From Polyangiaceae bacterium (lineage in GTDB: Bacteria > Myxococcota_A > Polyangia > Polyangiales > Polyangiaceae), in assembly GCA_019637265.1 (NCBI GenBank), contig JAHBVY010000002.1:682001-746000 (forward strand): a DNA stretch of 64,000 nucleotides, written 5' to 3'. Below are positions 36,680-58,923 of this stretch, piece after piece; the first letter of the stretch is position 1; each line of letters begins with the position of its first letter. The notes under the pieces are model-generated. The model saw nothing but the letters and a program-made list of their open reading frames with translations. It was not told the DNA's origin and made no database searches. A program made the position numbers and the translations under genes.

Positions 36680-37021
36680 ACGCCCCACGTATAGCGCGAC
36701 GGAGCGCGCCCCACCCCCAGCTATGGCAACCACGAGCTCATGACAGAATGTCAGGCGCGCCACGCGCAGGCGCCACTTCGGCGCGGCCATGAGGAGCAGT
36801 CCGCCTCGCGCGAGCAGCTCCAACCAGGTGCCGACGAGCAGCGACCCTGCCTGCCTAGCCTCACGGCGATGGTCCGCGATGGCTCCGCGCGCCGCGTCTC
36901 GCGTCGATCGCGCAGCACCAAGCGATGGCGCGGTGGGTCGTCGCGGCGACGGCTGCCTCGCGTTCACCTACCACGGCAACGGTTTGCGCCATGGCACGCT
37001 CTGTGCTCAAACGGCCTGGCC
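36680..37021. other. divergent region between pseudokinase-Trx and MXAN_2561-like genes
   Basis: 342 bp. The pseudokinase frame is open through most of it, so it could be coding if an upstream start is used. No clear promoter or repeat seen. Confidence 0.4.
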
Positions 37022-38089
37022 ATGTTCGGCGCCCTTCCCTCCTCGCTCCGGCGCGCCCTCGCGCTGCTCGGGCTCACCCTCGCCAGCGCGCTCCACGCCG
37101 CGCCCGCCGGCGCTCAGACGCTCACCCTGAACACGACCAACTACGGTCGCACCCCGGAGGTGAGCCGTCAGAACGCCGACCTGAACAAGGCCATCGCGCT
37201 GAGCGACTGCGAGGCGGACGGCCGCTACAGCCTCTACCTCCAGCGCACGGGCCCCGCCGCCAGCACGCTCCGGGTGTTCGTCAGCACGGGTAACGACTGC
37301 TCGGTGAAGGACAACCGCACCCGCGACAAGGGCTGCATCGAGATCCACTCGCAGGCCGACAACGCCGCGAACTACACGCTGGATCTGTACTTCCGCGACA
37401 TCATCGCCGCGCACCGCACCGGCAGCGCGCGCTGCGCCGCGTTCGATGAAGCCTGCAAGCAGAACGCCTGCACGGATGAGGACAACGGCACCCGCAAGAC
37501 GCTGACCTTGTGGTTCATGCTCGACAACTCGTCGGACACCGCCATCAACCAGCTCAGCTGGGACACCAGCTACGACCTGGCGGGGCCGCCCGCGCCCGCC
37601 GGCGTCAGCGCGGGGATCGGTGAGGAGCAGCTCACGGTGAGCTGGCGCGCCCCCACGGACACTGACCTCGCGTCGTACCGGTTCTACTGTGACTCGGCGG
37701 CGGGCGGCGGGGACGGTGGCGGCGCTTGCACCAGCGCGGCGCTGGTGCCGGGGGAGGTGCCTTCATCGGAGTATGAGTGCGGCTCCAACTCGTCGCGCAC
37801 GGCGACCAGCGGCACCGTGAGCGGGCTCACCAACTTCCAAGAGTACGTGGTGGGGGTGTCGGCGGTGGACAACCTCGGCAACGCGGGGCCCCTCTCGGAG
37901 CTGGTGTGCGCGACGCCGGAGCCGGTGGACGACTTCTTCGAGCTCTATCGCCGCGCAGGGGGCAAAGGCGGCGGTGGCTACTGCGCGATGAGCCCGAGTC
38001 AGGCGCCGGCGCGCCCGCTGGGTGTGGTAGTGGGTCTCGGCATGTTGGGTTGGTTCTTGCGGCGGCGCGCGCAGCGGGAGGCGCGGTGA
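37022..38089 (+). CDS. MXAN_2561-like secreted protein with FnIII and MYXO-CTERM-like tail
   Basis: 355 residues from ATG 37022, which opens a good signal peptide (L-R-R-A-L-A-L-L-G-L-T-L-A-S-A-L). The N-terminal domain (about 33-180) has several cysteines (S-D-C-E, N-D-C-S, K-G-C-I, R-C-A-A, K-Q-N-A-C). A fibronectin type III-like domain follows (about 190-300: A-P-A-G-V-S-A-G-I-G-E-E-Q-L-T-V-S-W). The C-terminus has a G-G-G-Y-C stretch, a hydrophobic helix (L-G-V-V-V-G-L-G-M-L-G-W-F-L) and R-R-R-A-Q-R, the layout of MYXO-CTERM sorting signals. As I recall, this family is regularly paired with the MXAN_2562 barrel; here GTGA overlap joins them. Likely surface-anchored. Confidence 0.78.
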   Translation: MFGALPSSLRRALALLGLTLASALHAAPAGAQTLTLNTTNYGRTPEVSRQNADLNKAIALSDCEADGRYSLYLQRTGPAASTLRVFVSTGNDCSVKDNRTRDKGCIEIHSQADNAANYTLDLYFRDIIAAHRTGSARCAAFDEACKQNACTDEDNGTRKTLTLWFMLDNSSDTAINQLSWDTSYDLAGPPAPAGVSAGIGEEQLTVSWRAPTDTDLASYRFYCDSAAGGGDGGGACTSAALVPGEVPSSEYECGSNSSRTATSGTVSGLTNFQEYVVGVSAVDNLGNAGPLSELVCATPEPVDDFFELYRRAGGKGGGGYCAMSPSQAPARPLGVVVGLGMLGWFLRRRAQREAR

Positions 38090-38859
38090 ACGGGTTGGGA
38101 CGAAGCGCAGCGCTGTTCGGCGTCACGCTGTCGGCGCTCACGCTGGTGGCAGGCCACGCGGCGGCGCAGGGCGTGGATGAGCTAGGCACCTACGGGGGCA
38201 TCGAGAAGTGGCAGTACGAGTCGCCTCAGCACGCCGCGGTGGAGCTGCGCTTCGGGCGCTACGTCCCGGGCGTGGACGACGAGTTCAGCGGCGCCACGCC
38301 TTACGCGGACGCGTTCGGTGACAAGAACCGTTACCTGATCGGCCTCGAGGTAGATTGGCAGCTGCTGCAAATCCCTTCGTTTGGCACGCTGGGGCCAGGC
38401 ATCGGCTTCGGGTACACCACCGCCTCGGGCAAGGCGCGCGTCTCCAGCACGGGCACCGAATCCGACCAGGAGACGAGCCTCTCCATCCTGCCCATGTACC
38501 TGGTGGGCGTGCTGCGGATCGACGTCTTCGCACAGGACTTGGGCATCCCGCTCGTGCCGTACGGGAAATTAGGGCTCGGCTACGCGCTGTGGTGGAGCAG
38601 CTCGGGGGATGACTCCGCGCGCGACGACGCCGGCGTCATCGGCCGGGATACTTCCTACGGTTGGCAGTATGCCCTCGGCGGCATGCTGCACTTGGACGCC
38701 TTCGACCCACGCAGCGCGGCGGACATGGACATGAGCACCGGGGTGAACAACTCCTACCTGTTCATCGAGTGGTACGTCAGCCACCTTGACGGCTTCGGCG
38801 GCGACAAAATGGAGGTCGGCACCAACACCTGGATGCTCGGCCTAGCGCTCGAGCTGTAG
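38086..38859 (+). CDS. outer-membrane beta-barrel protein, MXAN_2562-like
   Basis: 257 residues, GTG start overlapping the upstream stop. Signal peptide, then alternating strands of a small barrel: A-A-V-E-L-R-F-G-R-Y-V-P-G-V-D-D-E-F, N-R-Y-L-I-G-L-E-V-D-W-Q-L-L, G-P-G-I-G-F-G-Y-T-T-A-S-G-K-A and P-Y-G-K-L-G-L-G-Y-A-L-W-W. The C-terminal strand ends L-G-L-A-L-E-L, with a terminal aliphatic residue rather than Phe. Family knowledge: uncharacterised myxobacterial outer-membrane proteins. Paired with the preceding surface protein, so the two probably work as a unit. Confidence 0.82.
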   Translation: MNGLGRSAALFGVTLSALTLVAGHAAAQGVDELGTYGGIEKWQYESPQHAAVELRFGRYVPGVDDEFSGATPYADAFGDKNRYLIGLEVDWQLLQIPSFGTLGPGIGFGYTTASGKARVSSTGTESDQETSLSILPMYLVGVLRIDVFAQDLGIPLVPYGKLGLGYALWWSSSGDDSARDDAGVIGRDTSYGWQYALGGMLHLDAFDPRSAADMDMSTGVNNSYLFIEWYVSHLDGFGGDKMEVGTNTWMLGLALEL

Positions 38860-39024
38860 CGCGCCAGTTAGACCACGTTGGCGAAGCAGCCAGCGCAGGG
38901 CGCATCAGCCACAGGGCGAAGGGGTCCGCTGGTCCCACAGGACGCAGTTGGGTTGGGTTCGCCCCCGCCCCACGTCGACGCGCGTCACCGCGACCCCCTT
39001 GGAGGCCGCACCGCGAGCTGCTGA

Positions 39025-39885
39025 TCAGCGCCAGCGGAGCAGGCGATCGATGTGCGCGGCTTCCCACGCTAGGGCGCGTTGGTAGTGGAGGAACGCCTGC
39101 TCGCGGCGGAGGAACTCGGGGGAGTGCAGCGTCAGGCGCCCGGCGCTGCGGAGCACCGGGACCACGTGGTGCAGTAGCTCGTGGAACACGATGTACTCGA
39201 CGAAGTAGCGAGGCACCCAGCGGTTATCCAACACGGGATGCACGCGGATCAGCCGCTCCGCCGCGCTGTAGGTCCCGAGCTTGATGGTGCGCCGCGCTCG
39301 ACCGCGAGGCGCCGAGCGGCGGCCCCAGGTGATGAGCACGTCGTCCGTGGCGCCGTCGAAGTAGCGCTCGTCCAGGCGCTGCTTGATGCTCGCGAGGTCG
39401 TGCACCGCGCCGCGCGTGGTGAGGCGCTGCGTGATCCGCCGCACCGGCTTGATGCGGTGGCTGTTCGCCTCGATGAACTCCCCGACGATCTGCGAAGCGG
39501 CTCGATCGCTATCGGCGATGAAGCCGGCCAACGCCGCCTGCACCCGCTCGGGCGCATCGAGGAACATCAGGTGCACCCGCACCCGCAGCACGCCGCGCTC
39601 ATGCCGGCAGCTCACCATGCGATGCAGGTTGTCCGTCACCGCGAGGCGCACCGGCTCACCGAGCCCCGACTCGAGGCGCCGCTCCAGCGACTGACGCGCC
39701 CCTTCGTGCACGAAGATCTGCGGGACCCGCGTGGCGAACTGGAGCGGCAGCTGGAGCGCCCGCCAATCCGGCAACCTCACCGCGGCGGGAGCCAGGCGCG
39801 GTGCCCCGCGCAGCGCCTTGGCCCGACCGCGCGTCACCCGCGAGGGCGACGACAACAACCAGGGGAAGACGACGGGGCGAGGCAT
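39025..39885 (-). CDS. SprT/M48-like zinc metalloprotease
   Basis: 286 residues. The zinc motif H-E-L-L-H-H lies near residue 235 in F-V-E-Y-I-V-F-H-E-L-L-H-H, followed by L-H-S-P-E-F-L-R-R-E, whose Glu or His could supply the third ligand. The region before it (W-G-R-R-S, I-K-L-G-T-Y, L-I-R-V-H-P-V-L-D-N) matches SprT-type proteins. No signal peptide or membrane helix, so cytoplasmic. ATG 39885 has AAGGAG 8 nt upstream. It lies downstream of recA on the same strand; SprT-like proteases act on DNA-protein crosslinks in other organisms, so a repair link is tempting but unproven. Confidence 0.75.
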   Translation of the reverse strand: MPRPVVFPWLLSSPSRVTRGRAKALRGAPRLAPAAVRLPDWRALQLPLQFATRVPQIFVHEGARQSLERRLESGLGEPVRLAVTDNLHRMVSCRHERGVLRVRVHLMFLDAPERVQAALAGFIADSDRAASQIVGEFIEANSHRIKPVRRITQRLTTRGAVHDLASIKQRLDERYFDGATDDVLITWGRRSAPRGRARRTIKLGTYSAAERLIRVHPVLDNRWVPRYFVEYIVFHELLHHVVPVLRSAGRLTLHSPEFLRREQAFLHYQRALAWEAAHIDRLLRWR

Positions 39886-40021
39886 CTGGCGGCTCCTTGG
39901 CCTACGAACGACCCCCTACGCCGTCAAGCGGCGCCCGGAGAGCCTATGATTTCCACAACCTACGAGCGCCTGACCACGAGGCACCTCCGCCATGGATAAC
40001 TACTTGAAATAATTGAACTAT

Positions 40022-40060
40022 TTGGACACGCCCCGCGGAATTACCGAGGGATGTGTCCAA
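40022..40060 (-). terminator. possible hairpin downstream of recA
   Basis: TTGGACAC/GTGTCCAA perfect 8-bp arms with a 23-nt loop, 150 bp past the recA stop. It could be a terminator, leader structure or operator of the SprT-like gene. Confidence 0.35.
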
Positions 40061-40128
40061 GGTTTTCCCCAGGTTGCGCGCAGCACCCTGTGGGCAGCCG
40101 ACAGACGAACGCATACGCATTCGTCCAG

Positions 40129-40144
40129 TTGGTTGGGGGTTAGA
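40129..40144 (+). repeat. dispersed G-rich motif, copy 10 (variant)
   Basis: TTGGTTGGGGGTTAGA downstream of recA; matches the G5-TT core but differs in both flanks. Confidence 0.55.
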
Positions 40145-40209
40145 CGGCACCGCGGCTCCGCTGCGACGCAGAGCCCGCGCGGTGTGAGGGCTGCCCTTGG
40201 CAACGATCG

Positions 40210-41400
40210 CTAGGCGCGCGCCGTGGGTCGCTTACCAGGGGGTGGCTGCTTGCCGTTGACGGCCTCTGCCGGCTTCGCGGTGCCCGCGGCCTCTACGCTG
40301 GGCTTCGCCGTGCTGGGCTTTGCTCCGCCGGGCTCCGTCTTACCACCCTCCACCTTGCTGCCCTCGGCCGGCGGTGGCCCGCGATGGATGCCGGCGTTCG
40401 CCAACACCAGGCGCTCGAGCCGCTCCATCATCTCCGGGTGCTCCTCGAGGTAGGTGCGCGCGGCGTCGCGCCCCTGCCCGATGCGCTCGCCATCCATCGA
40501 GTACCAGGCGCCGCTCTTCTGAACCAGGTTCAGCTCCACCGCCTGATCGAGCACCTCCCCGGAGCGGCTCACGCCCGCGCCGTAGATGATGTCGAACTCC
40601 ACCTCCCGGAACGGCGGCGCCATCTTGTTCTTCACCACCTTCACGCGGGTGCGGTTGCCGACCACCGTCATCTCCCCCTTGCGGTCCTTCGCCGCCTCCT
40701 TGATGGCGCCGATGCGCCGCACATCCAGCCGCACGGAGGAGTAGAACTTCAGCGCGTTGCCGCCGCTGGTCGTCTCCGGGCTGCCGAACATCACGCCGAT
40801 TTTCATGCGGATCTGGTTGGTGAAGAAGAACAGCGTGCTCGAGCGCGACACGGAGCCCGTGAGCTTCCGCAGCGCCTGGCTCATGAGCCGCGCCTGGAGC
40901 CCCACGTGGGAGTCCCCCATATCACCCTCGATCTCCGCCTTCGGCACCAGGGCCGCCACGGAGTCCACCACCACGATGTCCACCGCGCCGGAGCGCACCA
41001 ACATCTCCCCGATCTCCAGCGCCTGCTCACCATAGTCAGGCTGGCTGATGAGCAGCTCCTCTGTCTTCACACCGAGGCGGCGCGCGTAGGTGACGTCCAG
41101 CGCGTGCTCGGCGTCGATGAACGCCGCCACGCCGCCTTGCCGCTGGACGCTCGCGATGGCGTGCAGCGTGAGCGTGGTTTTACCGCTGCTCTCCGGCCCG
41201 AAGATCTCCACGATGCGGCCCCGCGGGTAACCCCCGATACCGAGCGCCAAGTCGAGCCCCAGCGAGCCGCTCGGCACCACCGGCACATCAGCGCCGATCT
41301 TCTCGCCATCCTTCAGCCGCATGATGGCGCCGCGGCCGAACTCCTTCTCGATGTTGGCTACGGTGAGCTCGATCGCCTTGACCTTCTCTTTGTCGTCCAT
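40210..41400 (-). CDS. recA: RecA recombinase
   Basis: 396 residues from ATG 41400 (GGGAGA about 8 nt before it). All RecA hallmarks are present: Walker A G-P-E-S-S-G-K-T (about 66), Y-A-R-R-L-G-V, Walker [18 protein letters not shown], loop L2 region [16 protein letters not shown] and Q-I-R-M-K-I-G-V. The C-terminal tail is Lys/Pro/Ala/Thr-rich rather than acidic. Function: ATP-dependent strand exchange and co-protease for LexA. It is monocistronic, with an unusually good promoter containing a LexA-box-like site, so SOS induction is expected. Confidence 0.98.
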
Positions 41401-47025: not shown

Positions 47026-48849
47026 TCACCGAACACAACGAGCCCAGACCGCATGGGCCACGCCGGCGCCGTAGGTGCTGCCATCGCCGAAGGACACGAC
47101 CCATCCGCTGGACGAACCGGAGACCGGAGAGGCACTCCAATAGAAACTCGACTGTGTACCTGAGAATAGGGTCAGATCAATGTGCGGTGACACTGCCTTG
47201 CGTCCGGGCACCAGGCTGCTCAGCTCGGCCACGGTGGGCAGGCGCCAGTCCGTCTTCCCGCCTAGCGACAGGCCCTCGCAATAGCTGACAGAATCCACCT
47301 GGTACTGCTGACCGGGCGATGTGCTACGCTGCCACTCGAGCCCCGTGGCGTGGTCCAACACCGTGTCACCCGTGACTTCGAAGAAGTGACCACTCGCGGG
47401 GATGGGCCGCTGAGAAGTGCCCTCCGCCACGCAACGCACACGCCTTGTCTCGCCTGAGCTCGATGCGCCAACAAACCCACCGCTGAACGCTACGAACCAC
47501 TTATTGCCATCGGTTCGCCCCGAGGCTGACCAAAACCCCGCGCTGGGGGTGCTGGGGAACGCATCGCTATCTATCGCTGGGTTAACCCGCCCATAGTCCA
47601 CCAGGGAGAGCAGCTCCATTCGCGTCGGCAAGCGCCAGTCCTTACGCCCGCCCCACGTAAGCCTGTCACAGTAGCTCACCGCCTGTGTCCAATCGAGTTC
47701 GTTGGTCGCGGGCTCACGTTGCCACAGCAGGCCCGTCACGTTGTCCAACACCGTCTTATCAGCCTCATTCACTGTGTAGCTGTGCGGGTGGCCCGGCGTG
47801 CCTGGCAGCGGGCCGCGAGCGTAGCCGTCATAGTCTGCGTAGCGAACGCCCTCGCACCTCGCGAACTCGCAATAGGGAAGGTCCCCAGAACAGGCTGCAC
47901 CCCGCACTGAGGTGCTCAAGCCATCTCCAGCGCAGTCCATGGGCTGATTGCCATCACAGTAGGCTTCACCAGCCGGGCACACCCAAGGCTCACACACGCC
48001 CGCGCGACAGGTCGCACCTGGATCACCGCTCTGACCATCACTGCAGGCCGCACCGAGCGGCGCCGAGTTCACGCCGTCCACAGAGCAGCGGCGCGGCTGC
48101 GCCCCGTCGCAGTAGTCCGTGCCTGGCTCACACGCCCAAGCGGCACACTCGCTGCCGTTCACGCAGCTCTGACGATCCCCACACGGCCACTCCTCCTCCG
48201 AGGTGCCGTTCGTGGAGCAGACGACGCGCTCCAGCCCTTGGCAGTAGGTCGCGCCTGGGACACAGATGCGCGCCTTGCACGCGCCGCCCTCACAAACCTC
48301 GCCCGCCCGGCAGTTCAGCGTCTCGATGAGAGTGAAGCCATCTTCGGAGCACACTTCCACTTGACCGCTGCCATTGCAGTGAGTCCCCGGGCGGCATGCG
48401 CGAGTCTCACAGCGGCCGTCCACACACTGATTCACGCCACAGGGCTCGCGCCTCGTCACCGCCAAGCCATCCGCCGCGCAGGTGACCACCGTGTTCCCCT
48501 CGCAGCGCACGCTCGCCGGCTCACACACCGTGGCCACGCAGGCGCCATTGGCGCAAGCCGGCGTGTCCCCGGAGCACACCTCCTGAAGCTCGAAGCCGTC
48601 CCCGTCTGCTCGGCACACCTCCACCGCGGTGCTCTTGCAGCGCAGCTCCCCTGCCTCACACAAGGGCGTGCCCGCGTTGATGGTGTTCTCCTTGCTGCCA
48701 CAACCGCCGGCGCTGAGCGCCCCAAGCGCTAGGAGCAGCGCGGCGCTCAGGGCATTGAACGGCGGATGGAGTGGGATGCGGAACCACGCGGCGCCCCACG
48801 CCCGGCACCTTGGCCCGCTGCGCCCAGCGCGGTGCTGGCAAACCCCCAA
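47026..48849 (-). CDS. Cys-rich lipoprotein with two DUF1566 domains; 5-prime end frame problem
   Basis: About 607 codons open. Lipobox A-G-G-C near 50, then about eight Cys-rich modules (C-E-P-x...C-x-G-x...C) to about 335, then two DUF1566 (Lcl C-terminal) domains with W-Q-R-E...Y-C-D-R-L-T-W-G-G-R-K-D-W-R-L-P-T (about 370) and W-Q-R-S...D-W-R-L-P-T (about 510). In this frame there is no ATG or GTG before the lipobox, only TTG at 48849. A good start (GGGAGGAGG, ATG at 48872) lies in another frame that ends at a stop inside the signal region. The paralog at 49151 has an intact start. So this copy is either frameshifted or uses TTG. Probable surface protein of unknown ligand. Confidence 0.8.
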   Translation of the reverse strand: MGVCQHRAGRSGPRCRAWGAAWFRIPLHPPFNALSAALLLALGALSAGGCGSKENTINAGTPLCEAGELRCKSTAVEVCRADGDGFELQEVCSGDTPACANGACVATVCEPASVRCEGNTVVTCAADGLAVTRREPCGVNQCVDGRCETRACRPGTHCNGSGQVEVCSEDGFTLIETLNCRAGEVCEGGACKARICVPGATYCQGLERVVCSTNGTSEEEWPCGDRQSCVNGSECAAWACEPGTDYCDGAQPRRCSVDGVNSAPLGAACSDGQSGDPGATCRAGVCEPWVCPAGEAYCDGNQPMDCAGDGLSTSVRGAACSGDLPYCEFARCEGVRYADYDGYARGPLPGTPGHPHSYTVNEADKTVLDNVTGLLWQREPATNELDWTQAVSYCDRLTWGGRKDWRLPTRMELLSLVDYGRVNPAIDSDAFPSTPSAGFWSASGRTDGNKWFVAFSGGFVGASSSGETRRVRCVAEGTSQRPIPASGHFFEVTGDTVLDHATGLEWQRSTSPGQQYQVDSVSYCEGLSLGGKTDWRLPTVAELSSLVPGRKAVSPHIDLTLFSGTQSSFYWSASPVSGSSSGWVVSFGDGSTYGAGVAHAVWARCVR

Positions 48850-48853
48850 ACCC
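48836..48853 (-). repeat. dispersed G-rich motif, copy 12
   Basis: TGGCAAACCCCCAAACCC at the 5-prime end of the DUF1566 gene, between the good ATG at 48872 and the signal region. The paralog carries a degenerate form at the matching place (50904-50925). Confidence 0.75.
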
Positions 48854-49053
48854 GCTCACTTTGCGCCTTCATGCTGCCTCCTCCCAGGCTCCCAAGCCCC
48901 TGCTCACGCAGCTCCAAACCGAGCACGCTGGTGCTGACCCGCGTGCCATGATCACACGATTTTCACAAGGGAATTCTAGCCACCTCACCTGAATGCACGC
49001 CCCTGATACGCGCGCCGCAACCAGGGCTACCCAGGGATCGCACCGTGGCGGCG

Positions 49054-49077
49054 GGCGGCCACGGGGGGCCGCCCTAC
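49054..49077. repeat. GTAGGGGC-type palindrome
   Basis: GGCGGCCACGGGGGGCCGCC followed by CTAC, almost identical to the copy inside the coding linker at 35706. In the 278-bp gap between the DUF1566 paralogs. Confidence 0.75.
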
Positions 49078-49150
49078 GCATCACTGGCGGTCGGGCGTAG
49101 CTTGGGTACCGACGGGTGGCGGGCTCGGGCCCCAGTGACCAACCCCGCCT

Positions 49151-50941
49151 TCACCGGACGCAGCGCACCCAGTGCGCGTAGGTCGCGGGGGAGTTGCCGA
49201 CTTGGCCGTTGTGGAAGCCCACGACCCACACGGCGGATGAACCGGAGAACTGAGAGGTGGTCCAGTAGAAGCTGGACTGCGTACCTGGGAATATCGTCAG
49301 GTCCGTGTACGGTGAGGCAGACTTACGACCTGGCACCAGGTTGCTCAGCTCGGCCACGGTGGGCAGGCGCCAGTCCGCCTTCCCATCCAGCAACAGGCCT
49401 TCACAGTAGCTCACCGCGTCCGCGTGGTTGTGTGTGCTGAGTGAATTCCCGCGCTGCCACTCGAGCCCCGTCGCGTGGTCGACCACCGTGCCACCCGTGA
49501 CCTCGAAGAAGTGGCCACTCACGGGGATGGGCCGCTGAGGGGTATCCTCCGCCACGCAGCGCACGCGCCGTGAGGCGCTTGGGCTCGATGTGTAGGCGCT
49601 CCCAGAGACGAACTCCAGGCACCACTTATTGCCATTGGTTCGCCCCGTGGCTGACCAGAACTCCACGCTTGGGGTGCTGGGGAACGCGACGCTGTCTATC
49701 GCGGGGGTGTTCCGCCCGTAGTCCACTAGGGAGCGCAGCTCCATCCGCGTCGGCAAGCGCCAGTCGCTGCGGCCACCCCACTCCAGATCGTCGCAGTAGC
49801 TCGCCGCCTGTGCCCAAGTGAGGCCGCTCGGCGCAGGCTCCCGCTGCCACAGCAGGCCGGTCACGTTGTCCAGCACCGTCTTGGCGGCCTCATCGAAGCT
49901 GTAGCTGCGCGGGTGGCCCGGCGTACCTGGCTGCGGACCGCGCGCGTAACCATCGTAGTCCTCGCAAGCCCCGACGATGCAAGCCTGGGCGCTCAGGCAG
50001 GCGGCGCCCAGGCTTACGGAGGTCAGGCCATCTGACGCACAGCTACGTGGCTCAGCACCCTCGCAGTAGTCCGCGCTCGGCTCGCAAACCCAAGGCTCAC
50101 ACACCCCCGCGCTGCACTTCGCCTGGACGCAAGGCGGCAAGGCCACCGAGCTCAGCCCATCAGCCTGGCAGCGCCGCGGCTCGTCCCCATCACAGTAATC
50201 AGCGCCTGCGTCGCACACCCAGTCCGCGCACTGACCGTCACCCACGCAGCTCTGTCCAACATCGCACGGCGACGACGCCTCCGAAGAGCCGCTCGCCGAA
50301 CAGATAGTTGGTATGCCTTCCTTACAATACCTGGTATTGGGCTCGCATAGCAGCGCCTGGCACTCGCCGTCCTCACAGCGCTCCGTCGCAGAGCAGCTCC
50401 GCGTCTCGATGAGGGTGAAGCCATCTGCGGAGCATACCTCCACTTGGTTCTGGGTGTTGCAGTGAGTGCCCGGGCGGCACACCCAGCTCTCGCACTGGCC
50501 GTCGAAGCACCGCTGGTTCACGCCGCAGGGCTCGCGCTGCGTCACCGCCAGGCCGTCCGCCGCGCAGGTGACCACCGTGTTCCCCTCGCAGCGCACGCTC
50601 GCCGGCTCACACGCCGTGGCCACGCAAGCACCATTCACGCAAGCCGGTGTGTCCCCGGAGCACACCTCCTGAAGCTGGAAGCCGTCCCCGTCCGCTCGGC
50701 ACACCTCCACCACAGTGCTCGTACACCGCAGCTCCCCCGCCTCACACAAGGGCGTGCCCGCGTTGACGGCGTTCTCCTCACTGCCACAACCACTGGCGCT
50801 GAGCGCCCCCAGCGCCAACAACAAACCCACGCCAAGGACGCTGAGCGGACGAACGCCAGCAGCTAGCGGGCGATGACGGCGCCGGCTTCGACCGTTCGGC
50901 TCACTGCCGAACCCCCGCAACCCATGATCTCGTTTGGTCAT
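49151..50941 (-). CDS. Cys-rich lipoprotein with two DUF1566 domains (paralog)
   Basis: 596 residues. ATG with GGGAGG 6 nt upstream. Signal peptide with lipobox S-A-S-G-C near 52, then Cys-rich modules and two DUF1566 domains as in the downstream paralog (W-R-L-P-T-R-M-E-L-R-S-L and W-R-L-P-T-V-A-E-L-S-N-L). The two genes are a tandem duplication; the block encoding the first modules (about 50508-50770 against 48430-48680) is nearly identical while the middle modules have diverged. DUF1566 is common in large surface proteins of Polyangia. Function unknown; probably outer-membrane exposed and disulfide-rich. Confidence 0.85.
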   Translation of the reverse strand: MTKRDHGLRGFGSEPNGRSRRRHRPLAAGVRPLSVLGVGLLLALGALSASGCGSEENAVNAGTPLCEAGELRCTSTVVEVCRADGDGFQLQEVCSGDTPACVNGACVATACEPASVRCEGNTVVTCAADGLAVTQREPCGVNQRCFDGQCESWVCRPGTHCNTQNQVEVCSADGFTLIETRSCSATERCEDGECQALLCEPNTRYCKEGIPTICSASGSSEASSPCDVGQSCVGDGQCADWVCDAGADYCDGDEPRRCQADGLSSVALPPCVQAKCSAGVCEPWVCEPSADYCEGAEPRSCASDGLTSVSLGAACLSAQACIVGACEDYDGYARGPQPGTPGHPRSYSFDEAAKTVLDNVTGLLWQREPAPSGLTWAQAASYCDDLEWGGRSDWRLPTRMELRSLVDYGRNTPAIDSVAFPSTPSVEFWSATGRTNGNKWCLEFVSGSAYTSSPSASRRVRCVAEDTPQRPIPVSGHFFEVTGGTVVDHATGLEWQRGNSLSTHNHADAVSYCEGLLLDGKADWRLPTVAELSNLVPGRKSASPYTDLTIFPGTQSSFYWTTSQFSGSSAVWVVGFHNGQVGNSPATYAHWVRCVR

Positions 50942-51119: not shown

Positions 51120-51803
51120 TCAGCGTTGCTCGATCTCCCACACCAGCTGCTGGTTGCCTTGCGCGCCGGCGAAGCGGAGGCCGAAGTATTTGGCTTCGGG
51201 GGAAATGGTGAGGCCGCCGTCGGGGCGCCGCGTGGGGAAGCGGAGACGGAAGGCGCGGCGCCAGGGGGTGGTGTAGGGGAAGTAGGTGCGCTCCACGGCG
51301 CCAGGGCGCTCGATGGGGATGATCTCGCGCGGCGGTGTCTCGTTGCCTTGGTCGTCAACCATGCGTACGACCCACGCGGGGTCGTCGCGAGTGAGGTCAG
51401 CCCACTTGTGGTTCTCGGCGAAGAGGGCGATGTAAAATTGATGGTGCTCCCGCGACTCGCTCAGGGTGCGCTCGAGCAGCACGCGGCGCTGGTCCACGCT
51501 GAGGCGATAATCCGAGGCGTAGCGGACCACGTAAGCCCAGCGGAAATCCCAAGCCTCGTACGTCGCGGTGACGTTGAGCACGTTGTCGAGCTCCCGCATC
51601 ACGATGAGCTCGCTGTTACGCGTCCAATGGTCCAGCACCCGATCGTAATCGGTGGCGACGTACTCCCGCGCGCCCTCGCTGAGGCTCACCTTCGGCACGC
51701 CGCAGCCCGTGGCAGCCACCACGAGCCCCAGCGTGATGCACAGCGCCGCGAACCCCGTGAGGCAGGGCAGGCGCGGGGCGCGGGGAGGGAGCTGGCAAGC
51801 CAT
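51120..51803 (-). CDS. hypothetical lipoprotein
   Basis: 227 residues. Signal peptide with lipobox A-A-T-G-C near 34. The mature domain starts V-S-L-S-E-G-A-R-E-Y-V-A-T-D-Y and has long helices (R-N-S-E-L-I-V-M-R-E-L-D-N-V-L-N-V, V-D-Q-R-R-V-L-L-E-R-T-L-S-E-S-R-E-H-H) followed by strands with a Y-F-P-Y-T-T-P-W-R-R-A-F-R-L-R-F-P segment. I do not recognise the family. It is upstream of the DUF1566 pair by 178 bp on the same strand, possibly but not clearly co-transcribed. Confidence 0.72.
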   Translation of the reverse strand: MACQLPPRAPRLPCLTGFAALCITLGLVVAATGCGVPKVSLSEGAREYVATDYDRVLDHWTRNSELIVMRELDNVLNVTATYEAWDFRWAYVVRYASDYRLSVDQRRVLLERTLSESREHHQFYIALFAENHKWADLTRDDPAWVVRMVDDQGNETPPREIIPIERPGAVERTYFPYTTPWRRAFRLRFPTRRPDGGLTISPEAKYFGLRFAGAQGNQQLVWEIEQR

Positions 51804-51838: not shown

Positions 51839-51943
51839 CTAGCAGAAATCAGCGCTCGCCACTCGGCGTTGTTGCTGCGCGACGGCGCGGGAGCGCAAGG
51901 TGGCGAGCTGCTTCACCTCGCGGCTGGAGCCGGCGAGCGCGCC
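51839..51943 (-). pseudogene. 3-prime gene-end fossil (copy of TPR gene end)
   Basis: Minus strand reads A-L-A-G-S-S-R-E-V-K-Q-L-A-T-L-R-S-R-A-V and on to a TAG at 51841-51839; the intact TPR gene ends A-L-A-G-S-P-N-R-E-V-K-Q-F-A-I-E-R-S-R-A. The frame is the same as that of the Uma2 gene, right after its stop. With 52915-53030 it forms imperfect direct repeats around the Uma2 gene. Confidence 0.75.
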
Positions 51944-51976
51944 CAGGGTGTGCAGTGCGTCTGAGCGCGGCTCGCG

Positions 51977-52783
51977 TCAGTCGAGCGCGTCGGGGTCGAC
52001 GCCCAGCGCGCGCAGCTTGGCCGCCAACTGGTCGGCGCGCGCCTGCTCGCGCTCTCTGGCGCGCTGCTCGTCCTCGAGCTGTGCCAGCAATTCTCGCTCA
52101 CGCTCGAGCGCACCCACCACTTGGGCGTTCACCATCTCGTCGAGCCGCACGATGAGCTCTTCGGCGTCGGGCAGCGGCGCGGCGCCACTGAAGAAGCGCA
52201 CCTTGCCGCCCTCCATCGCTAAATCCAAACCGAGCACCTGCGAGCTCCAGCGCCCAGCCTGCGGCACGATCGGAACGTAGCTCTGCTTACCCTCCTCCAG
52301 GCGATACCCAACCAGGCGTTGATGCAAGGGCTCGAACAGGAAGTACTCCGGGATGGCCAGCTTGGCGTAGCGGATCACGTTGTCTTCGCGATCCTTCTTC
52401 GCGTTACCGCGCACGTGCACCTCGAGCACGAAATCGAGGCCGCGCCCCTCGACGCTCACCACCCATTTGTCTCGCGGGTGCGGCTCCACGTCGAGCACCG
52501 CGATCACATCGGGCGCGAACAGCTCTTCTCCTGGGTAGTAGACCGGCAGCTCAGCGGACAAGTACACTGACCGACCGTGGCGCCGGAACCAATCACGGAG
52601 CTGCTCGAGCGCGCTCTTCTTGGGGATTTGATGCCGGTCACCCTCCGGCGCGGTGCTGCGGGGCACCTCCGAGGGCAACATCGCGACCACGGCGGCGCGC
52701 TCCGCCTCGGTCATGCTCGCCCACTGCGCTTCACTCGGCGCGCGCGGAGCCTCGGGCTCGAACTCGTAGCGAGACACGGTCAT
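51977..52783 (-). CDS. Uma2-family (DUF820) putative restriction-endonuclease-fold protein
   Basis: 268 residues. The Uma2 core spans about 75-185: E-L-F-A-P-D-V-I-A-V-L, G-R-G-L-D-F-V-L-E-V-H-V-R-G-N-A-K-K-D and K-L-A-I-P-E-Y-F-L-F-E, giving the D...E-V-x...K-D pattern of the PD-(D/E)xK fold. A coiled coil (about 215-262, Glu/Arg/Ala-rich) forms the C-terminus. Family knowledge: Uma2 proteins are abundant in filamentous and social bacteria and have no settled function. The start at 52783 has a GGAGG close by. It lies between the TPR gene and a duplicated fragment of that gene's end, suggesting arrival by insertion. Confidence 0.83.
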   Translation of the reverse strand: MTVSRYEFEPEAPRAPSEAQWASMTEAERAAVVAMLPSEVPRSTAPEGDRHQIPKKSALEQLRDWFRRHGRSVYLSAELPVYYPGEELFAPDVIAVLDVEPHPRDKWVVSVEGRGLDFVLEVHVRGNAKKDREDNVIRYAKLAIPEYFLFEPLHQRLVGYRLEEGKQSYVPIVPQAGRWSSQVLGLDLAMEGGKVRFFSGAAPLPDAEELIVRLDEMVNAQVVGALERERELLAQLEDEQRAREREQARADQLAAKLRALGVDPDALD

Positions 52784-52876
52784 GGCCTCCGAAGCTTACC
52801 TCCGGAGGAGCCCAGGCGAAAGCGGCGCACGCCGCGTCGCGGCCGCCACGCGCAGCGTGCGACACCAAGGGCGGCA

Positions 52877-52898
52877 GGTACCGCAATCGTGCGGCACC
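52877..52898 (-). terminator. hairpin downstream of TPR gene
   Basis: GGTACCGCA-ATCG-TGCGGCACC, 9-bp stem with one mismatch and a 4-nt loop, 17 bp past the TPR gene stop. No U-tract. Confidence 0.45.
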
Positions 52899-52914
52899 TA
52901 GGGCCTCAACCGCC

Positions 52915-54051
52915 CTACCTGCCAGCCGCGGCCGCCACTTGGCGCTGTTGCTGCTGGAGGTACTGCGCGACGGCGCGGGAGCGCTCGATGGCGAACTGCT
53001 TCACCTCGCGGTTGGGGGAGCCGGCGAGCGCGTTGAGGAGCTTCGTCACCTTATCGATTTGGCGGCTCTGGAACAGCGCCTCGAAGTAGTTGTTCGCGAG
53101 CCGCACGTCGCGCGCCATCTGCGCCTCGTGAGGCTGCAGCATCTCGATCACCTTGTTCAGGTCGCCGCGCTGACCATGCAGCGCGGAGAGGCACACCAGC
53201 GCGAGCGGGTCGTTCGGGTTGCGCTCCACGGCCTTCTCCGCCCAGCGCAGCGCTTCGTCGCGCTTCTCCTCGTCGTTCGCGTAGAAGCCCTGGATGGCGA
53301 TGAACGGCGCCGCGCTCGCCTTGTTCGGCTCCTTGTCCGCCAGCTCGCTCACAGCCTTCACCGCGGCCGCTTCGTCCGCGCCCTCACGCACCTGGGTGAA
53401 GAGGTAAGCCCAAGCGTCCACGCACTTCGGGTCGATCTCGATGGCGCGCTCGATCAGCGCGCGCTCCTCCGCGGCGTCTCCCTTGCCCTTGGCCACCTTG
53501 GCGAGGTGCAGCGTGGGGAACGGGTTGTCCTTCAGCAGGTTCTGCGCGCCCTTGAGCGTGGACTCCGCCTTGTCCCACTTCTCCTGCTGCAGCTGGGTCA
53601 CGCCCAGGCCGAGCCAGTCTTCACCCACCAAGCCACCCGCGGCCACCACCTTGGCGAGCACCTTCTCCGCCTGCTCGATGCGGCCGTACTTCACCAGCTC
53701 CTGGGCGTAGATGCGACCACGGTTGAGGTCTTCCTTGTTCTCTTTCCAGTTGCGATCCAACCCATCGAGTAAGTCATCCAGACCAATGGCGATGGGGCGG
53801 CCCTCCTGATCCATCACCTGCACCGCGGGCCCGTTGAACCCGAGCAGCTTCCACATCTGCTCCTGCGTCACCGCCACGGGGCCCTTCTCGAGCGCCGCCT
53901 TCAGCTCATCGCTCGGCTGGTTGAGCGGCATCACCACCAGCGCGTTCGCGGGCACCCCGCCGGGGAAGGCGCCGACCGGCGCGACGATGGCGGCGCCACC
54001 CGAGAGCTGAAGATTGGCTTGAACGCCCTGGGGCGGGTTCGACTGGGTCAT
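52915..54051 (-). CDS. TPR-repeat protein
   Basis: 378 residues, no signal peptide. N-terminal 110 residues are non-repetitive (L-N-Q-P-S-D-E-L-K-A-A-L-E-K-G, M-D-Q-E-G-R-P-I-A-I-G-L-D-D-L-L). From about 120 on there are TPR helices: Y-A-Q-E-L-V-K-Y-G-R-I-E-Q-A-E-K-V-L, L-G-L-G-V-T-Q-L-Q-Q-E-K-W-D-K-A, A-L-I-E-R-A-I-E-I-D-P-K and A-L-R-W-A-E-K-A-V-E-R-N-P. Family knowledge: protein-interaction scaffold; partners unknown. The Gln/Ala-rich last 15 residues are the part copied downstream at 51839. AAGGA lies just before the ATG. A hairpin follows the stop. Confidence 0.83.
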   Translation of the reverse strand: MTQSNPPQGVQANLQLSGGAAIVAPVGAFPGGVPANALVVMPLNQPSDELKAALEKGPVAVTQEQMWKLLGFNGPAVQVMDQEGRPIAIGLDDLLDGLDRNWKENKEDLNRGRIYAQELVKYGRIEQAEKVLAKVVAAGGLVGEDWLGLGVTQLQQEKWDKAESTLKGAQNLLKDNPFPTLHLAKVAKGKGDAAEERALIERAIEIDPKCVDAWAYLFTQVREGADEAAAVKAVSELADKEPNKASAAPFIAIQGFYANDEEKRDEALRWAEKAVERNPNDPLALVCLSALHGQRGDLNKVIEMLQPHEAQMARDVRLANNYFEALFQSRQIDKVTKLLNALAGSPNREVKQFAIERSRAVAQYLQQQQRQVAAAAGR

Positions 54052-54386: not shown

Positions 54387-55424
54387 ATGACTATCGCCAC
54401 GGGCATCGTTGCCGTCTTGGGGATCGCGCTGCTCATGGTGGTCCACGAGGGCGGGCACCACTTGGTGGCGCGGGCCTTCGGGATGAAGGTGCTGAAGTTC
54501 AGCATCGGGATGGGGCCGCCCATCTGGCGCCACCAGCCGAAGGACAGTGACACTGTCTACCAGGTCGCGCTGATCCCCTTCATGGCCTACGTGCAGATCC
54601 ACGGGATGAACCCGCTGGAGGAGGTCGACCCGGACGATAAGGAGAGCTACGCGAACGCGAGCCTCATCGCGCGCATCAGCGCCATCTTCGCGGGGCCGCT
54701 CGCCAACTACCTGTTCGCGTCGGTCTTGTTCTTCGGCGCGCTCGTCATCGGCGGTCAGCAGACACCCAGCCTGACCGTCGCCGAGGTGAGCAAGGAGAGC
54801 CCCGCGCTCGCGGCGGGTATTCAAGCGGGGGATCGGATCGTGCGCATCGAGGGCGCTCAGCTGAACGGATGGGACGACTTGGTGACGCGGGTGCAAGCCA
54901 GCCCCGATCGCGAGATCGAGGTGGTGGTGATGCGCGAAGGCGCCGAGCGCAGCATCCGCGTCACGCCCAAGAAGAACCCCGCGGGCAAAGGCCTCATCGG
55001 CGTGAGCCCCACCTTCGAGCGCAGCGACATCGCGCTGGGGGAGGCCACGGAGCGCGCGCTCATCCTGCCCGCCAAGATGGTGGTGGAGATGCTGAAGGGG
55101 ATCGGCCGCATCATCACCGGCAAGGAGAAGGCGGAGCTCGGCGGGCCGATCCGCATCTTCGAGGAGAGCAGCAAGGCCGCCAAGGCCGGCGCCGATCAGT
55201 ACCTGGGCTTGCTCGGTGTGCTCAGCACCTGGCTCGCCGTGTTCAACCTCCTGCCCATCCCCGCGCTGGACGGTGGGCGCCTGATGTTCCTCGGTTACGA
55301 GGCGATCACGCGGCGCCGCGCCAACGCCAAGGTGGAGGCCACGGTGCACTTGGTCGGCTTCGCGCTGCTCTTCATGCTGCTCTTGGTGGTCAGCGTGGGT
55401 GACGTCGGCCGGTTCTTCGACTGA
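54387..55424 (+). CDS. rseP: RseP-like site-2 zinc metalloprotease (M50B)
   Basis: 345 residues. H-E-G-G-H at 20-24 in the first membrane helix gives the zinc ligands and catalytic Glu; the second motif N-L-L-P-I-P-A-L-D-G-G (about 290) provides the Asp. One PDZ domain lies between (about 125-205, S-P-A-L-A-A-G-I-Q-A-G-D-R-I-V-R-I-E-G); E. coli RseP has two, so this is the shorter form. Function: intramembrane cleavage of anti-sigma factors and signal peptide remnants. lpxC follows on the same strand after 138 bp, an envelope-biogenesis context. Contains a perfect 15-bp palindrome at 54543-54557. Confidence 0.93.
   Translation: MTIATGIVAVLGIALLMVVHEGGHHLVARAFGMKVLKFSIGMGPPIWRHQPKDSDTVYQVALIPFMAYVQIHGMNPLEEVDPDDKESYANASLIARISAIFAGPLANYLFASVLFFGALVIGGQQTPSLTVAEVSKESPALAAGIQAGDRIVRIEGAQLNGWDDLVTRVQASPDREIEVVVMREGAERSIRVTPKKNPAGKGLIGVSPTFERSDIALGEATERALILPAKMVVEMLKGIGRIITGKEKAELGGPIRIFEESSKAAKAGADQYLGLLGVLSTWLAVFNLLPIPALDGGRLMFLGYEAITRRRANAKVEATVHLVGFALLFMLLLVVSVGDVGRFFD
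54543..54557. repeat. GACAGTGACACTGTC palindrome in rseP
   Basis: Perfect 15-bp palindrome with one central base, encoding K-D-S-D-T-V-Y in rseP. Shares CAGT-NNN-ACTG with 44231 and 55992. Confidence 0.7.
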
Positions 55425-55562: not shown

Positions 55563-56381
55563 GTGGAGCGCCTCGCCTTCCATGGCCTGGGGCTCCACTC
55601 GGGGGAGCCGTGCAGCCTCGCGCTCGATCGCGATCATGGCCCGGTGCGGCTCCGAGTGGGGAAGCGGAGCGTGGAGCTGGCTCAGCTCACTGTTTTCCGC
55701 ACGGATTTAGGCGTGCAGGTGGGCGTGGAGCCGGAGGGTGAGCTGCCGGGGTTCCGGGTGGATTTGGTGGAGCACCTGTTCGGGGCGCTGGCGGGCCTCC
55801 AGGTGGATGGCCAGCTCGAGATTCGGGTCACGGGCCCGGAGCTCCCGCTGCTCGATGGCGGCGCGCTCGAGCTGAGCCAGGCGCTGCTCGCCCTGGAGCT
55901 ACCCGCGAGCCCTCCGCGGCTCCGGGTGCTGCGCGCGGGGGAGCTACACCTGGGGACGTCGCGTTATGTTTTGACGCCCGCCGAGCGAGTCAGTGTGACT
56001 GTCCAAGTGGATTTTCGGGGGGTTGGCGAGCAATGCGCGAGTTGGGACGGTACCCGCGGCAGCTTCTTGACTGACATCGCGCCCGCGCGCACCTTCGGCT
56101 ACCGCGCGGACCACGCCGCGCTCAGTGAACGCGGCCGGGCGCGCCACGTGGACAAGCGGAGCGTGATGGTGCTCACCGAGGCAGGCGAGGTGGAGCCGCC
56201 GGGGCGCCCCATGGGCCAAGACGAGCTCGCGCGGCACAAGCTGCTCGATCTGCTCGGTGACCTGTACCTCGGCGGCGGCGCCCCCCTCGGCAGCATCCGC
56301 GCGGAGCACCCGGGTCACACGAGCAACCACCGCTTTCTCCGGGCAGCCACTGAAGCCGGCCTGATCGGCCAAGTGAGCTAG
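55563..56381 (+). CDS. lpxC: UDP-3-O-acyl-N-acetylglucosamine deacetylase
   Basis: 272 residues, somewhat short for LpxC (about 300). Opening F-H-G-L-G-L-H-S-G matches G-x-G-x-H-S-G. The zinc ligands are recognisable: H71 in V-E-H-L-F-G-A-L, then H-K-L-L-D-L-L-G-D-L-Y-L (about 224-235, His and Asp) and the catalytic His in P-G-H-T-S-N-H (about 252). A-R-T-F-G-Y also fits. Function: committed, zinc-dependent step of lipid A synthesis. The downstream gene is convergent. A G-rich motif copy and a CAGT/ACTG palindrome lie in its coding sequence without breaking the frame. Confidence 0.92.
   Translation: MERLAFHGLGLHSGEPCSLALDRDHGPVRLRVGKRSVELAQLTVFRTDLGVQVGVEPEGELPGFRVDLVEHLFGALAGLQVDGQLEIRVTGPELPLLDGGALELSQALLALELPASPPRLRVLRAGELHLGTSRYVLTPAERVSVTVQVDFRGVGEQCASWDGTRGSFLTDIAPARTFGYRADHAALSERGRARHVDKRSVMVLTEAGEVEPPGRPMGQDELARHKLLDLLGDLYLGGGAPLGSIRAEHPGHTSNHRFLRAATEAGLIGQVS
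55989..56002. repeat. AGTCAGTGTGACT palindrome in lpxC
   Basis: AGTCA-GTG-TGACT within lpxC, 10 bp before the G-rich motif copy. Shares the CAGT-NNN-ACTG core. Confidence 0.55.
56012..56029 (+). repeat. dispersed G-rich motif, copy 14 (in coding sequence)
   Basis: TTTTCGGGGGGTTGGCGA in lpxC, encoding F-R-G-V-G. Confidence 0.65.
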
Positions 56382-56478
56382 CTGCGCGCGCTGGGCGTCG
56401 ATCCGGATGCGCACGACTGACGCGAGCCGCGCTACTTGCGCGGGTCAACGACGAACGCTTCGAATCGGCAACGTCACC

Positions 56479-58923
56479 TCAGCTGACGAGCAGCTCTAAC
56501 AAGGGCGGTACGCTGACGAGCAGCTCTTGCGCTAGGTGCGGCTCCCCGATGAGCACCAGGGCGCCTCCGGGGCCTGCGTGCACCGCGCTGGGCGCGGGCT
56601 CACGGCTGATGATCTGCGTGGGTAACACGAACTCACCTGGGAGCAGCTCACCGCTGCCCTCCACCAAGAGCCGCCCAGCGCCCACGATCATCAGCCCAGG
56701 CACCGCGGCGCCGGCTTGCACCAGCGCCTCATCCGCGAGCAAGAGCCGCACCTGCATCCGCTCGGTGACCTGGTGGCGCAGCTCGGGATCGAGGCGCTCA
56801 CCCAGCAGCCCCATCGCCACCCCCGCGAGCGCCTGCAGCCTATCCGCCACCTGCTTCAGCTCGTCGGCCACCCAAGGGCAGTCCGCCGTGGCGCGCTCGA
56901 GGGCGCCACGCCGCCACACCGCGACCGTGGCACCCGCGTCACCGGCCACCACCCGCAGCGCCACGCCATCGGCGAGCGACCCACCGGTGAACACCACCTC
57001 CCCCACGCCCGCGCTGGCCGCAATCAGATCGTCGACGGCGGGCATCACGTGGACCACCCCGGCGGTGATCAGCGCGACCTCGAACTGACCCACCTCCTCC
57101 TCCGCCTCCAGCTCGATCAGCGAAGCCTCCTGCGCCAACTCGAGCTGCGCCTCCTCCGGGAGATCTTCCAGGCCGCGCACCTCCATCAGGTCGATGCCAC
57201 CGACGACGGGCGCGCTCGGCGCTTCCGGAGCCGTCTCCTGAGCAAGCGCCTCCTGAGCGGGCGCTTCCGGAGCCGCCCCCTGAACAGACGCCTCCTGAGC
57301 CTCCCGCGGCGCGGCCTCGTGAGCGGCTTCCTCCGGAGCCACTTCGGAGGAGGCTCCCAGCGACTTCACTGCGGAGGAAGCCTCGGCCGGTCGAGCCGGC
57401 GCGCTCACGGGTGGCTTCTCACTCGGCTCTTCCAAGGAGATCTCGAGCGGGGCCAGCGCAGCGGGCGGCGCCTCGATGAGCGCCACGTCGAGGGGCTCGA
57501 TCGGGCGCAGACCGTCAGGATCCGTGTCGAAGCGCGCGCCAGGATCCGGCTCGGCCAGCAGCTCGTCGATCGACGCGTCGCGCCCCGCCCACTTGAGCGC
57601 CGCATCGGCGGCGGCGGTCCCGCCGGTGAGCAGATCGTCAGCCAGCTCCACCGAGGTGTCCCGCACCTCGAGCTCATCGGCCACCGTGATCACGCTGGGG
57701 AGCAACACGGCAGGGAGGCTGTCCGACACCGGTGCTTCTTCCTCCTCGACCACCACCTCTCGCGGAGCGACCTCGGGCGCGTCGCTCGCGTCGAGGCTCG
57801 AGAGCGGCGCGAGCTCCTCCTCCGAGATCGGCGCGGGCGCCTCCGCCTCCGCCAAGCGGAGCTCACTCTCCGCCGCGAGCACCAGCGGCGGGGGAGCGCT
57901 GTTGCCCGTATCTGGCTCGCGCTCGGGGAACAGGCTCCCTGACGTCTCGTCCTCCGCCGGCAGGCGCTCCGGAGCCTGGCTCGGCGCCTTCGCGTCGCCT
58001 TGCCAAACCCCCAAACCCTCGTGAGCCGCTGGCGGCAGCTCGACAGCCGCCGTGACGAGGCGCTCAGGCTCTAGCTGGATACGATCCGCCGCGCCCCTCC
58101 CCAAGGATGAACCAGCGCCATCGACAGGGAGGCTGTCAACGACGCTCTCCGCGACCAGGCTGACAGGGAGGCTGTCAACGGCGCTCTCCGCAACCAGGCT
58201 GACAGGGAGGCTGTCAACGGCGCTCTCCGCGACCAGGCTCTCCGGTGCTGGCTGGGCGCGCTCCGCGGACGCGCTCTCCAGCGTCGTTGGCTCTTCCTCC
58301 GGGAACAGGGGCGCTCCGAGCGGCGCGCCTACGAGGCCCTCGGGCTCCAGGCTGTCCGGAGCGACGCTCTCGGGCGCGATGCTCTCAGGGGCCAAGCTCT
58401 CCGGGCTTTCGTCAGCATCACTGACCGATCGGCGCGGCGGGGGCGGCGGTGCCCGCAAGGGACGCGGGGGTGGCTTGGCTGGCGCGGGCGGCTTGGCCGG
58501 CGGGGGCTTCGCGGGCTTGGCGGCGACGCCATCCTGCTGTGACTGCAGGGTGACGGCGAGCTCCGGCGGCGGACGCCGCGGGGCGACGGCGGGCTCCTCC
58601 ACCACCACCTCGATGTCATCCACCTCACCTGGGTCCAGCTGGGACAGCCGCGGCGCGGAGGTCACCACATCGGGATCCGACTCCCGGCTCTCCTCCTCGG
58701 CCAGCCGCGCGCTGATCTGCTGCACCGCCTCGTCGATCTGCGTCGCGCGCTCCGCCGCGCCGATGCCCTTCGCGAACGCGCCGGCCCGCTCCAGCCACAC
58801 CACAGCGTCCGCGTAGGCGCCACGGCCCCACTGCACCTGCGCCGTCTGCAGCGCCCAGGCGACGTCATCGTCGTCGTCAGGGCGAGCCGTAGGCACCTCG
58901 AACGGCAGCGCGGCTCCTGTCAT
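56479..58923 (-). CDS. large acidic protein with two degenerate cNMP-binding-like domains
   Basis: 814 residues. The N-terminal 75 residues are helical and TPR-like (W-A-L-Q-T-A-Q-V-Q-W-G-R-G-A-Y-A-D-A-V-V-W). A very long Pro/Ala/Glu/Ser-rich linker (about 80-570) includes three 13-residue repeats S-L-V-A-E-S-A-V-D-S-L-P-V. The C-terminus has two cyclic-nucleotide-binding-type beta-rolls (about 575-690: L-P-E-E-A-Q-L-E-L-A...E-V-V-F-T-G-G; about 705-812: L-D-P-E-L-R-H-Q-V...P-G-E-F-V-L-P) that lack the usual P-G-E...R-x-A-x cassette. Inference: a cytoplasmic adaptor rather than a nucleotide sensor. It lies 54 bp downstream of ftsK, likely co-transcribed. Confidence 0.65.
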   Translation of the reverse strand: MTGAALPFEVPTARPDDDDDVAWALQTAQVQWGRGAYADAVVWLERAGAFAKGIGAAERATQIDEAVQQISARLAEEESRESDPDVVTSAPRLSQLDPGEVDDIEVVVEEPAVAPRRPPPELAVTLQSQQDGVAAKPAKPPPAKPPAPAKPPPRPLRAPPPPPRRSVSDADESPESLAPESIAPESVAPDSLEPEGLVGAPLGAPLFPEEEPTTLESASAERAQPAPESLVAESAVDSLPVSLVAESAVDSLPVSLVAESVVDSLPVDGAGSSLGRGAADRIQLEPERLVTAAVELPPAAHEGLGVWQGDAKAPSQAPERLPAEDETSGSLFPEREPDTGNSAPPPLVLAAESELRLAEAEAPAPISEEELAPLSSLDASDAPEVAPREVVVEEEEAPVSDSLPAVLLPSVITVADELEVRDTSVELADDLLTGGTAAADAALKWAGRDASIDELLAEPDPGARFDTDPDGLRPIEPLDVALIEAPPAALAPLEISLEEPSEKPPVSAPARPAEASSAVKSLGASSEVAPEEAAHEAAPREAQEASVQGAAPEAPAQEALAQETAPEAPSAPVVGGIDLMEVRGLEDLPEEAQLELAQEASLIELEAEEEVGQFEVALITAGVVHVMPAVDDLIAASAGVGEVVFTGGSLADGVALRVVAGDAGATVAVWRRGALERATADCPWVADELKQVADRLQALAGVAMGLLGERLDPELRHQVTERMQVRLLLADEALVQAGAAVPGLMIVGAGRLLVEGSGELLPGEFVLPTQIISREPAPSAVHAGPGGALVLIGEPHLAQELLVSVPPLLELLVS
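58001..58018 (-). repeat. dispersed G-rich motif, copy 15 (in coding sequence)
   Basis: TGCCAAACCCCCAAACCC; on the coding strand it reads G-L-G-V-W-Q in the linker of the cNMP-binding-like protein. Confidence 0.75.
58123..58239 (-). repeat. 39-bp coding tandem repeat (3 units)
   Basis: Units at 58123, 58162 and 58201, 39 bp each, nearly identical. Each contains GACAG-GGAGG-CTGTC, a 5-bp-arm inverted repeat, and encodes S-L-V-A-E-S-x-V-D-S-L-P-V. Confidence 0.92.

Follow-up and report, generated by a model that had tools for sequence, protein, structure and literature searches.

How does a gene come to lie between the intact 3′ end of its neighbour and a second, decayed copy of that same 3′ end? 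The question is raised by a gene of the Uma2 family in the 64-kb stretch of DNA analysed here (the window, i.e. the stretch as a whole), which is found next to the gene of a TPR-repeat protein. Integrative elements that rebuild the 3′ end of a gene leave their cargo between two copies of that end, and illegitimate recombination is known as well to give partial tandem duplications with rearrangement. A preliminary description of the locus had offered both an integrating element and a partial duplication as readings. The evidence set out below favours Uma2 gain together with local duplication and rearrangement, and the footprint is better read as a general scar of gene gain, possibly by homology-facilitated illegitimate recombination, than as a clue to the spread of Uma2 genes.

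The Uma2 gene and the relic of the TPR gene end

The TPR gene (52915-54051, minus strand; 378 aa) is intact, with TPR Pfam matches and orthologues in the same family and order. Along the minus strand it is followed by a 131-nt spacer, the Uma2 gene, 35 nt, a decayed copy (relic) of the TPR gene 3′ end, a further 35 nt and a lipoprotein-like gene. The spacer (52784-52914), which extends from the TPR stop to the Uma2 start, contains three strong hairpins (z -3.5); no copy of it was found elsewhere in the same genome or in the other loci compared, and a DNA search of the genome found no further copy of the Uma2 cassette. The Uma2 reading frame (51977-52783, minus strand; 268 aa) is open, and its product matches PF05685 with E 7e-20 and 71.6 bits, above the gathering score of 27. 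The protein, a putative endonuclease, keeps the residues conserved in its own subfamily. Expansions of the Uma2/DUF820 family are described in which copy number differs among related genomes (PMC1274311; PMC9403480). The gene studied here belongs to the same family but, unlike in such expansions, its genome holds only two copies; the expectation that Uma2 genes are numerous in genomes of this kind thus fails for this genome, while 29 relatives hold from 0 to 44 each.

The relic (51839-51941, minus strand), recognized by direct repeats, gapped alignment and a three-way comparison, derives from the final approximately 118 nt of the TPR gene (52915-53032) and repeats about its last 34 codons. It starts 35 nt past the Uma2 stop, lies in the Uma2 frame, carries in-frame deletions of 3 and 12 nt with respect to the TPR gene and reaches its own stop at 51839. 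The likeness resolves into three direct repeat pairs: 51875-51927/52963-53015 (53 nt, 91% identical), 51839-51878/52915-52954 (40 nt, 75%) and 51926-51941/53017-53032 (16 nt, 100%). Upstream of the relic the similarity to the TPR gene ends abruptly (extension z -0.7).

High G+C sequence yields many weak repeats, so that chance or a shared low-complexity motif might be invoked; however, the gapped alignment of the TPR 3′ end with the relic scores 60.5, a value reached by none of 1000 dinucleotide shuffles, the best of which scores 26, and this explanation is refuted to the point of being practically negligible. The decayed, in-frame repeat of the TPR gene end reported behind the Uma2 stop is, therefore, real. 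Its extent needs qualification: DNA similarity holds over 51839-51941, whereas the 35 nt directly downstream of the Uma2 stop, where the repeat had been said to begin, are not clearly TPR-like.

Origin and age of the relic

The source of the relic was addressed by comparing the TPR gene, the relic and the TPR gene of the congener G001, the only genome of the same genus compared. The two TPR genes differ at 17/105 sites, 14 of which are third codon positions. At the 16 of these sites that can be scored in the relic, it agrees with the TPR gene of its own genome at 13, with G001 at one and with neither at two. The relic itself differs from the TPR gene at 10/90 sites, spread over the three codon positions as 3/5/2, to be set against 2/1/14 for TPR versus G001 (Fisher p=0.003). 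The agreement at 13/16 sites and the different codon pattern indicate copying from the TPR gene of its own lineage, followed by decay without coding constraint. Divergence from G001 at fourfold sites is strong throughout the TPR gene (0.39-0.71) with no rise at the 3′ end; on this basis the copy is much younger than the split of the two TPR genes, and no foreign TPR 3′ tail is visible along the gene. Judged by these sequence comparisons, the relic is a copy of the TPR gene of its own lineage, made after the split from G001.

A second scar and a moved gene

The relic is not the only scar. In addition to it, the picture drawn in the preliminary description overlooked two linked ones, namely a second Uma2 3′ end, in inverted orientation, at 56380-56433 and a displaced gene at 51120-51803. 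The former emerged when the genome was searched at the DNA level with the locus as query, and no other inverted pair in the region matches as well (54 nt, 93%). Its left arm (51964-52017, minus strand) comprises the 41 last nucleotides of the Uma2 gene, stop included, and 13 nt of 3′ flank; the right arm (56380-56433, plus strand), a remnant of this Uma2 end in inverted orientation, begins at the stop of an lpxC-like gene, 4.4 kb from the Uma2 gene. The match scores 44, against a maximum of 20 in shuffled sequences. The 22 nt that separate the TPR-like stretch from the shared Uma2 flank are without explanation. Three of the four differences between this stub and the Uma2 gene fall at third codon positions, so that the stub may stem from another, diverged and once-translated Uma2 gene, although so few sites give only a hint. 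A function is necessary neither for the TPR relic nor for the Uma2 stub.

The stub occupies the site at which relatives carry the lipoprotein-like gene. In the window, this gene (51120-51803, minus strand; 227 aa) starts 35 nt past the stop of the TPR relic, being both moved and inverted with respect to relatives. Between the TPR gene and the stub lie the gene of an M50/RseP-type protease (54387-55424, plus strand), the ancestral neighbour of the TPR gene on the basis of a profile match and of gene order in relatives, and the lpxC-like gene (55563-56381, plus strand), which matches TIGR00325 with E 3e-27, below the curated cut-off, and is followed in relatives by the lipoprotein-like gene. Beyond the stub lies an unnamed gene of 814 aa (56479-58923, minus strand), which in relatives converges on the lipoprotein-like gene.

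The ancestral order was established on 66 other TPR loci (12 from relatives and 54 named loci, with genomes overlapping between the two sets). TPR(-), M50(+) and lipoprotein-like gene(+) follow each other in 16 of the 54 named loci; in L104 and L107 the block that contains the lipoprotein-like gene is turned relative to the TPR gene, and in the remaining named loci at least one of the three genes is out of range or unrecognised. In 15/54 named loci both the lipoprotein-like gene and the 814-aa gene could be recognised, and in every one of these 15 no other recognised gene lies between them. In G001 the lipoprotein-like gene lies directly behind lpxC; its contig stops 164 nt past the TPR stop, short of a possible empty site. 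None of the 66 loci has a Uma2 gene of the same kind near the TPR gene or a second TPR tail, and a second full-length TPR gene in relatives, named beforehand as the sign of simple duplication and loss, was found in 0/66.

Gene-end repeats at other Uma2 loci

Whether similar repeats flank other Uma2 genes was examined with a uniform test for direct repeats between the 1000 nt on either side of the gene, those with z>7 being taken as strong; earlier tests with other flank lengths (2/204 of their controls with z>7) are superseded. Of 169 loci given, 165 had a central Uma2 gene, 161 were unique and 152 testable, and 330 ORFs from TPR loci, picked by length rather than curated as genes, served as controls. 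Strong repeats were found in 8/152 Uma2 loci (the index locus L072 and L215, L216, L196, L199, L146, L269 and L152) and in 4/330 controls. When the index and two tandem Uma2 arrays (L215 and L216) are left out, the comparison is 5/149 versus 4/330 (p=0.14) or, with z>10, 3/149 versus 3/330 (p=0.38). Gene-end repeats are not clearly enriched at other Uma2 genes, and Uma2-specific integration is unsupported by the survey. In the titles and abstracts of the literature searched on Uma2/DUF820 and on Uma2 mobility, gene-end repeats at Uma2 genes are not described.

Few of the individual cases withstand inspection. L199 retains the footprint, with the 3′ end of the neighbouring gene on both sides of Uma2; that neighbour has no match in two congeners. 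In L146 the 3′ end of the neighbour is likewise found on both sides, but the repeat is weak (about 73%) and close to a contig end. L269 shows two gene fragments and no clear gene end, and L152 a transposase-like end. L196 (G014:C132) was considered as a second case on account of its 213-nt repeat and rejected, its neighbour being an IgGFc-binding paralogue within a paralogue array with a dispersed repeat. The sequence of about 200 nt downstream of these IgGFc-binding paralogues is a repeat dispersed within the genus (e.g. at L196 and at G059:C2:3177974-3178418). The congener G059 is without the segment that carries most of the L196 relic and the Uma2 gene, i.e. it has an empty site.

The same footprint with another cargo

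One of the control loci, L092 (span 6218-7381), contains a homologue of the 814-aa gene, a 325-aa cargo gene and, beginning 2 nt past the cargo stop, a 71-nt relic in which the 3′ end of the homologue is repeated together with its stop. The cargo is lipoprotein-like with no Pfam match, and the relic sits on the side of the native neighbour. That the repeated peptide is the C terminus of the homologue was judged by eye, from its resemblance to the C terminus of the 814-aa gene in the window.

Downstream copies of gene 3′ ends were further scanned for by gapped alignment, with a cut on the end position of the match, among 1273 ORFs (576 from 840 kb of contig C12, on which the window lies, and 697 from 58 other loci). 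Most of the 25 matches with z>=6 extend upstream, as paralogues do, or lie less than 100 nt from the stop; the index locus and L092 stand out because their gap has the size of a gene and the match does not continue upstream, L110 being a weak third (z 6.1). At C12:677523-678596 the copy is close, with a gap of 91 nt. On the same contig, short cargo-free tandem copies of 3′ ends directly past the stop were seen at G000:C12:615999-617528 and 36904-41067; copies of this sort are an ordinary type of mutation. Since L092 shows such a footprint around a different cargo, and enrichment at Uma2 loci is not clear, the footprint is better taken for a general scar of gene gain than for evidence of how Uma2 spreads.

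Mechanism and alternative explanations

The locus is probably the result of Uma2 gain combined with local duplication and rearrangement by illegitimate recombination. The Uma2 gene would have been gained beside the TPR gene in this lineage only and, with the gain or later, illegitimate recombination would have placed a duplicate of the TPR 3′ end on the side of Uma2 away from the TPR gene. The 3′ end of Uma2 would likewise have existed twice before the block was rearranged, either by two nested inversions or by one inverted transposition of the lipoprotein-like gene, which would have ended beside the TPR relic while the Uma2 stub stayed behind lpxC. An order that fits every junction is tandem duplication of the TPR 3′ end with Uma2, inversion of the block, re-inversion of its inner part and decay of the extra copies. 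The relics and their strands, the ancestral gene order, and the fact that the TPR copy is young and in which direction it was made are demonstrated; the order of events and the enzymes are what we infer, and the order is unproven. Duplication is supported by the Uma2 3′-end stub at the other junction of the rearrangement, since a second copy of the cargo end is indeed present (56380-56433), now inverted; the short cargo-free tandem copies of gene ends elsewhere on the contig also speak in its favour. Only this 3′ stub, and no second whole Uma2 copy, was seen; as it is inverted and 4.4 kb off rather than still in tandem, a rearrangement must be assumed. Thus, the locus resembles known cases of partial tandem duplication with rearrangement in the direct copy of a gene end, the inverted copy at the other junction and the decay of the extras, and departs from them in that the reciprocal copies are incomplete and the exact event unreadable. 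Against this explanation, it takes two inversions instead of a single event, and none of the genomes compared is an intermediate.

The main rival, possible though distinctly doubtful, is capture in one step by homology-facilitated illegitimate recombination: an incoming fragment in which a TPR 3′ region was joined to Uma2 would have recombined homologously in the TPR gene and illegitimately just inside the resident 3′ end, which, with the same reserve, would have been left as the relic, the lipoprotein-like gene moving later. One event would suffice for the direct repeat, and L092 offers an alike footprint in another genome. This route is described in naturally competent bacteria (PMC3240628) and is proposed for displaced 3′ ends in Vibrio (PMC5361080); there, as here, the host gene beside the newcomer is intact and its former 3′ end has been displaced to a place behind the new gene, whereas the index locus also has an inverted stub and a moved gene. 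Capture leaves both of these unexplained. Furthermore, divergence from G001 does not rise towards the TPR 3′ end, although fourfold sites are strongly diverged all along the gene, and the relic adjoins the moved gene instead of the native downstream neighbour, although a later move is possible. A tandem duplication of the full-length TPR gene, of which Uma2 would later have replaced most of the second copy, would account for a relic that ends at the stop codon like a gene copy; the lack of a second TPR tail in the 66 other loci and the break of similarity upstream of the relic (extension z -0.7) make it quite improbable. Hardly credible, finally, is a site-specific integrating element that carries Uma2 as cargo, inserts in gene ends and rebuilds them. 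The footprint has the expected shape, with cargo between two 3′-end copies, and in L199 and, more weakly, L146 the Uma2 gene is flanked on either side by the 3′ end of its neighbour; yet, unlike such elements, the locus shows no integrase, tRNA or repeated unit. The search of neighbouring genes revealed no recombinase (44 to 62 kb of the window: M50/RseP, lpxC-like, FtsK, trypsin-like, two Lcl_C proteins and unnamed genes), ARAGORN found no tRNA in the 64-kb window, and no single unit recurs at several sites with the same junction, spacer and cassette both being unique. Repeat lengths vary widely among cases, and 5/149 other Uma2 loci stand against 4/330 controls (p=0.14). Thus, of the two readings first offered, the integrating element is unsupported, as neither a recombinase among the neighbours searched, nor a tRNA, nor a repeated cassette was found, and partial duplication gains from the Uma2 3′-end relic at the other junction. 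None of the findings points to a new mobile element.

Two further features of the neighbourhood may be recorded. Between STK and the moved gene, at 47026-50941, lie two tandem genes of Lcl_C-domain proteins that are mutual paralogues, and the trypsin-like gene at 44279-45379 matches PADLOC RT-Protease_XI (E 6e-20) in the protease part only.

Implications

With duplication and rearrangement as the preferred reading, what was suspected to be the footprint of an element becomes a readable history of rearrangement, and a single flanking gene-end repeat is seen to be weak evidence of mobility. It is conceivable, though we consider it unlikely, that accessory genes, including those of the Uma2 family, regularly arrive in core neighbourhoods in a way that leaves an intact core gene, the cargo and a short relic (about 60 to 140 nt in the present cases) of the old 3′ end, candidates being the index locus, L092, L199 and, more weakly, L146. 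If this were true, such relics would be datable scars that reveal both the newcomer gene and its mode of arrival and, should the scar recur with unrelated cargo, scans for 3′-end relics could flag recent gene gains.
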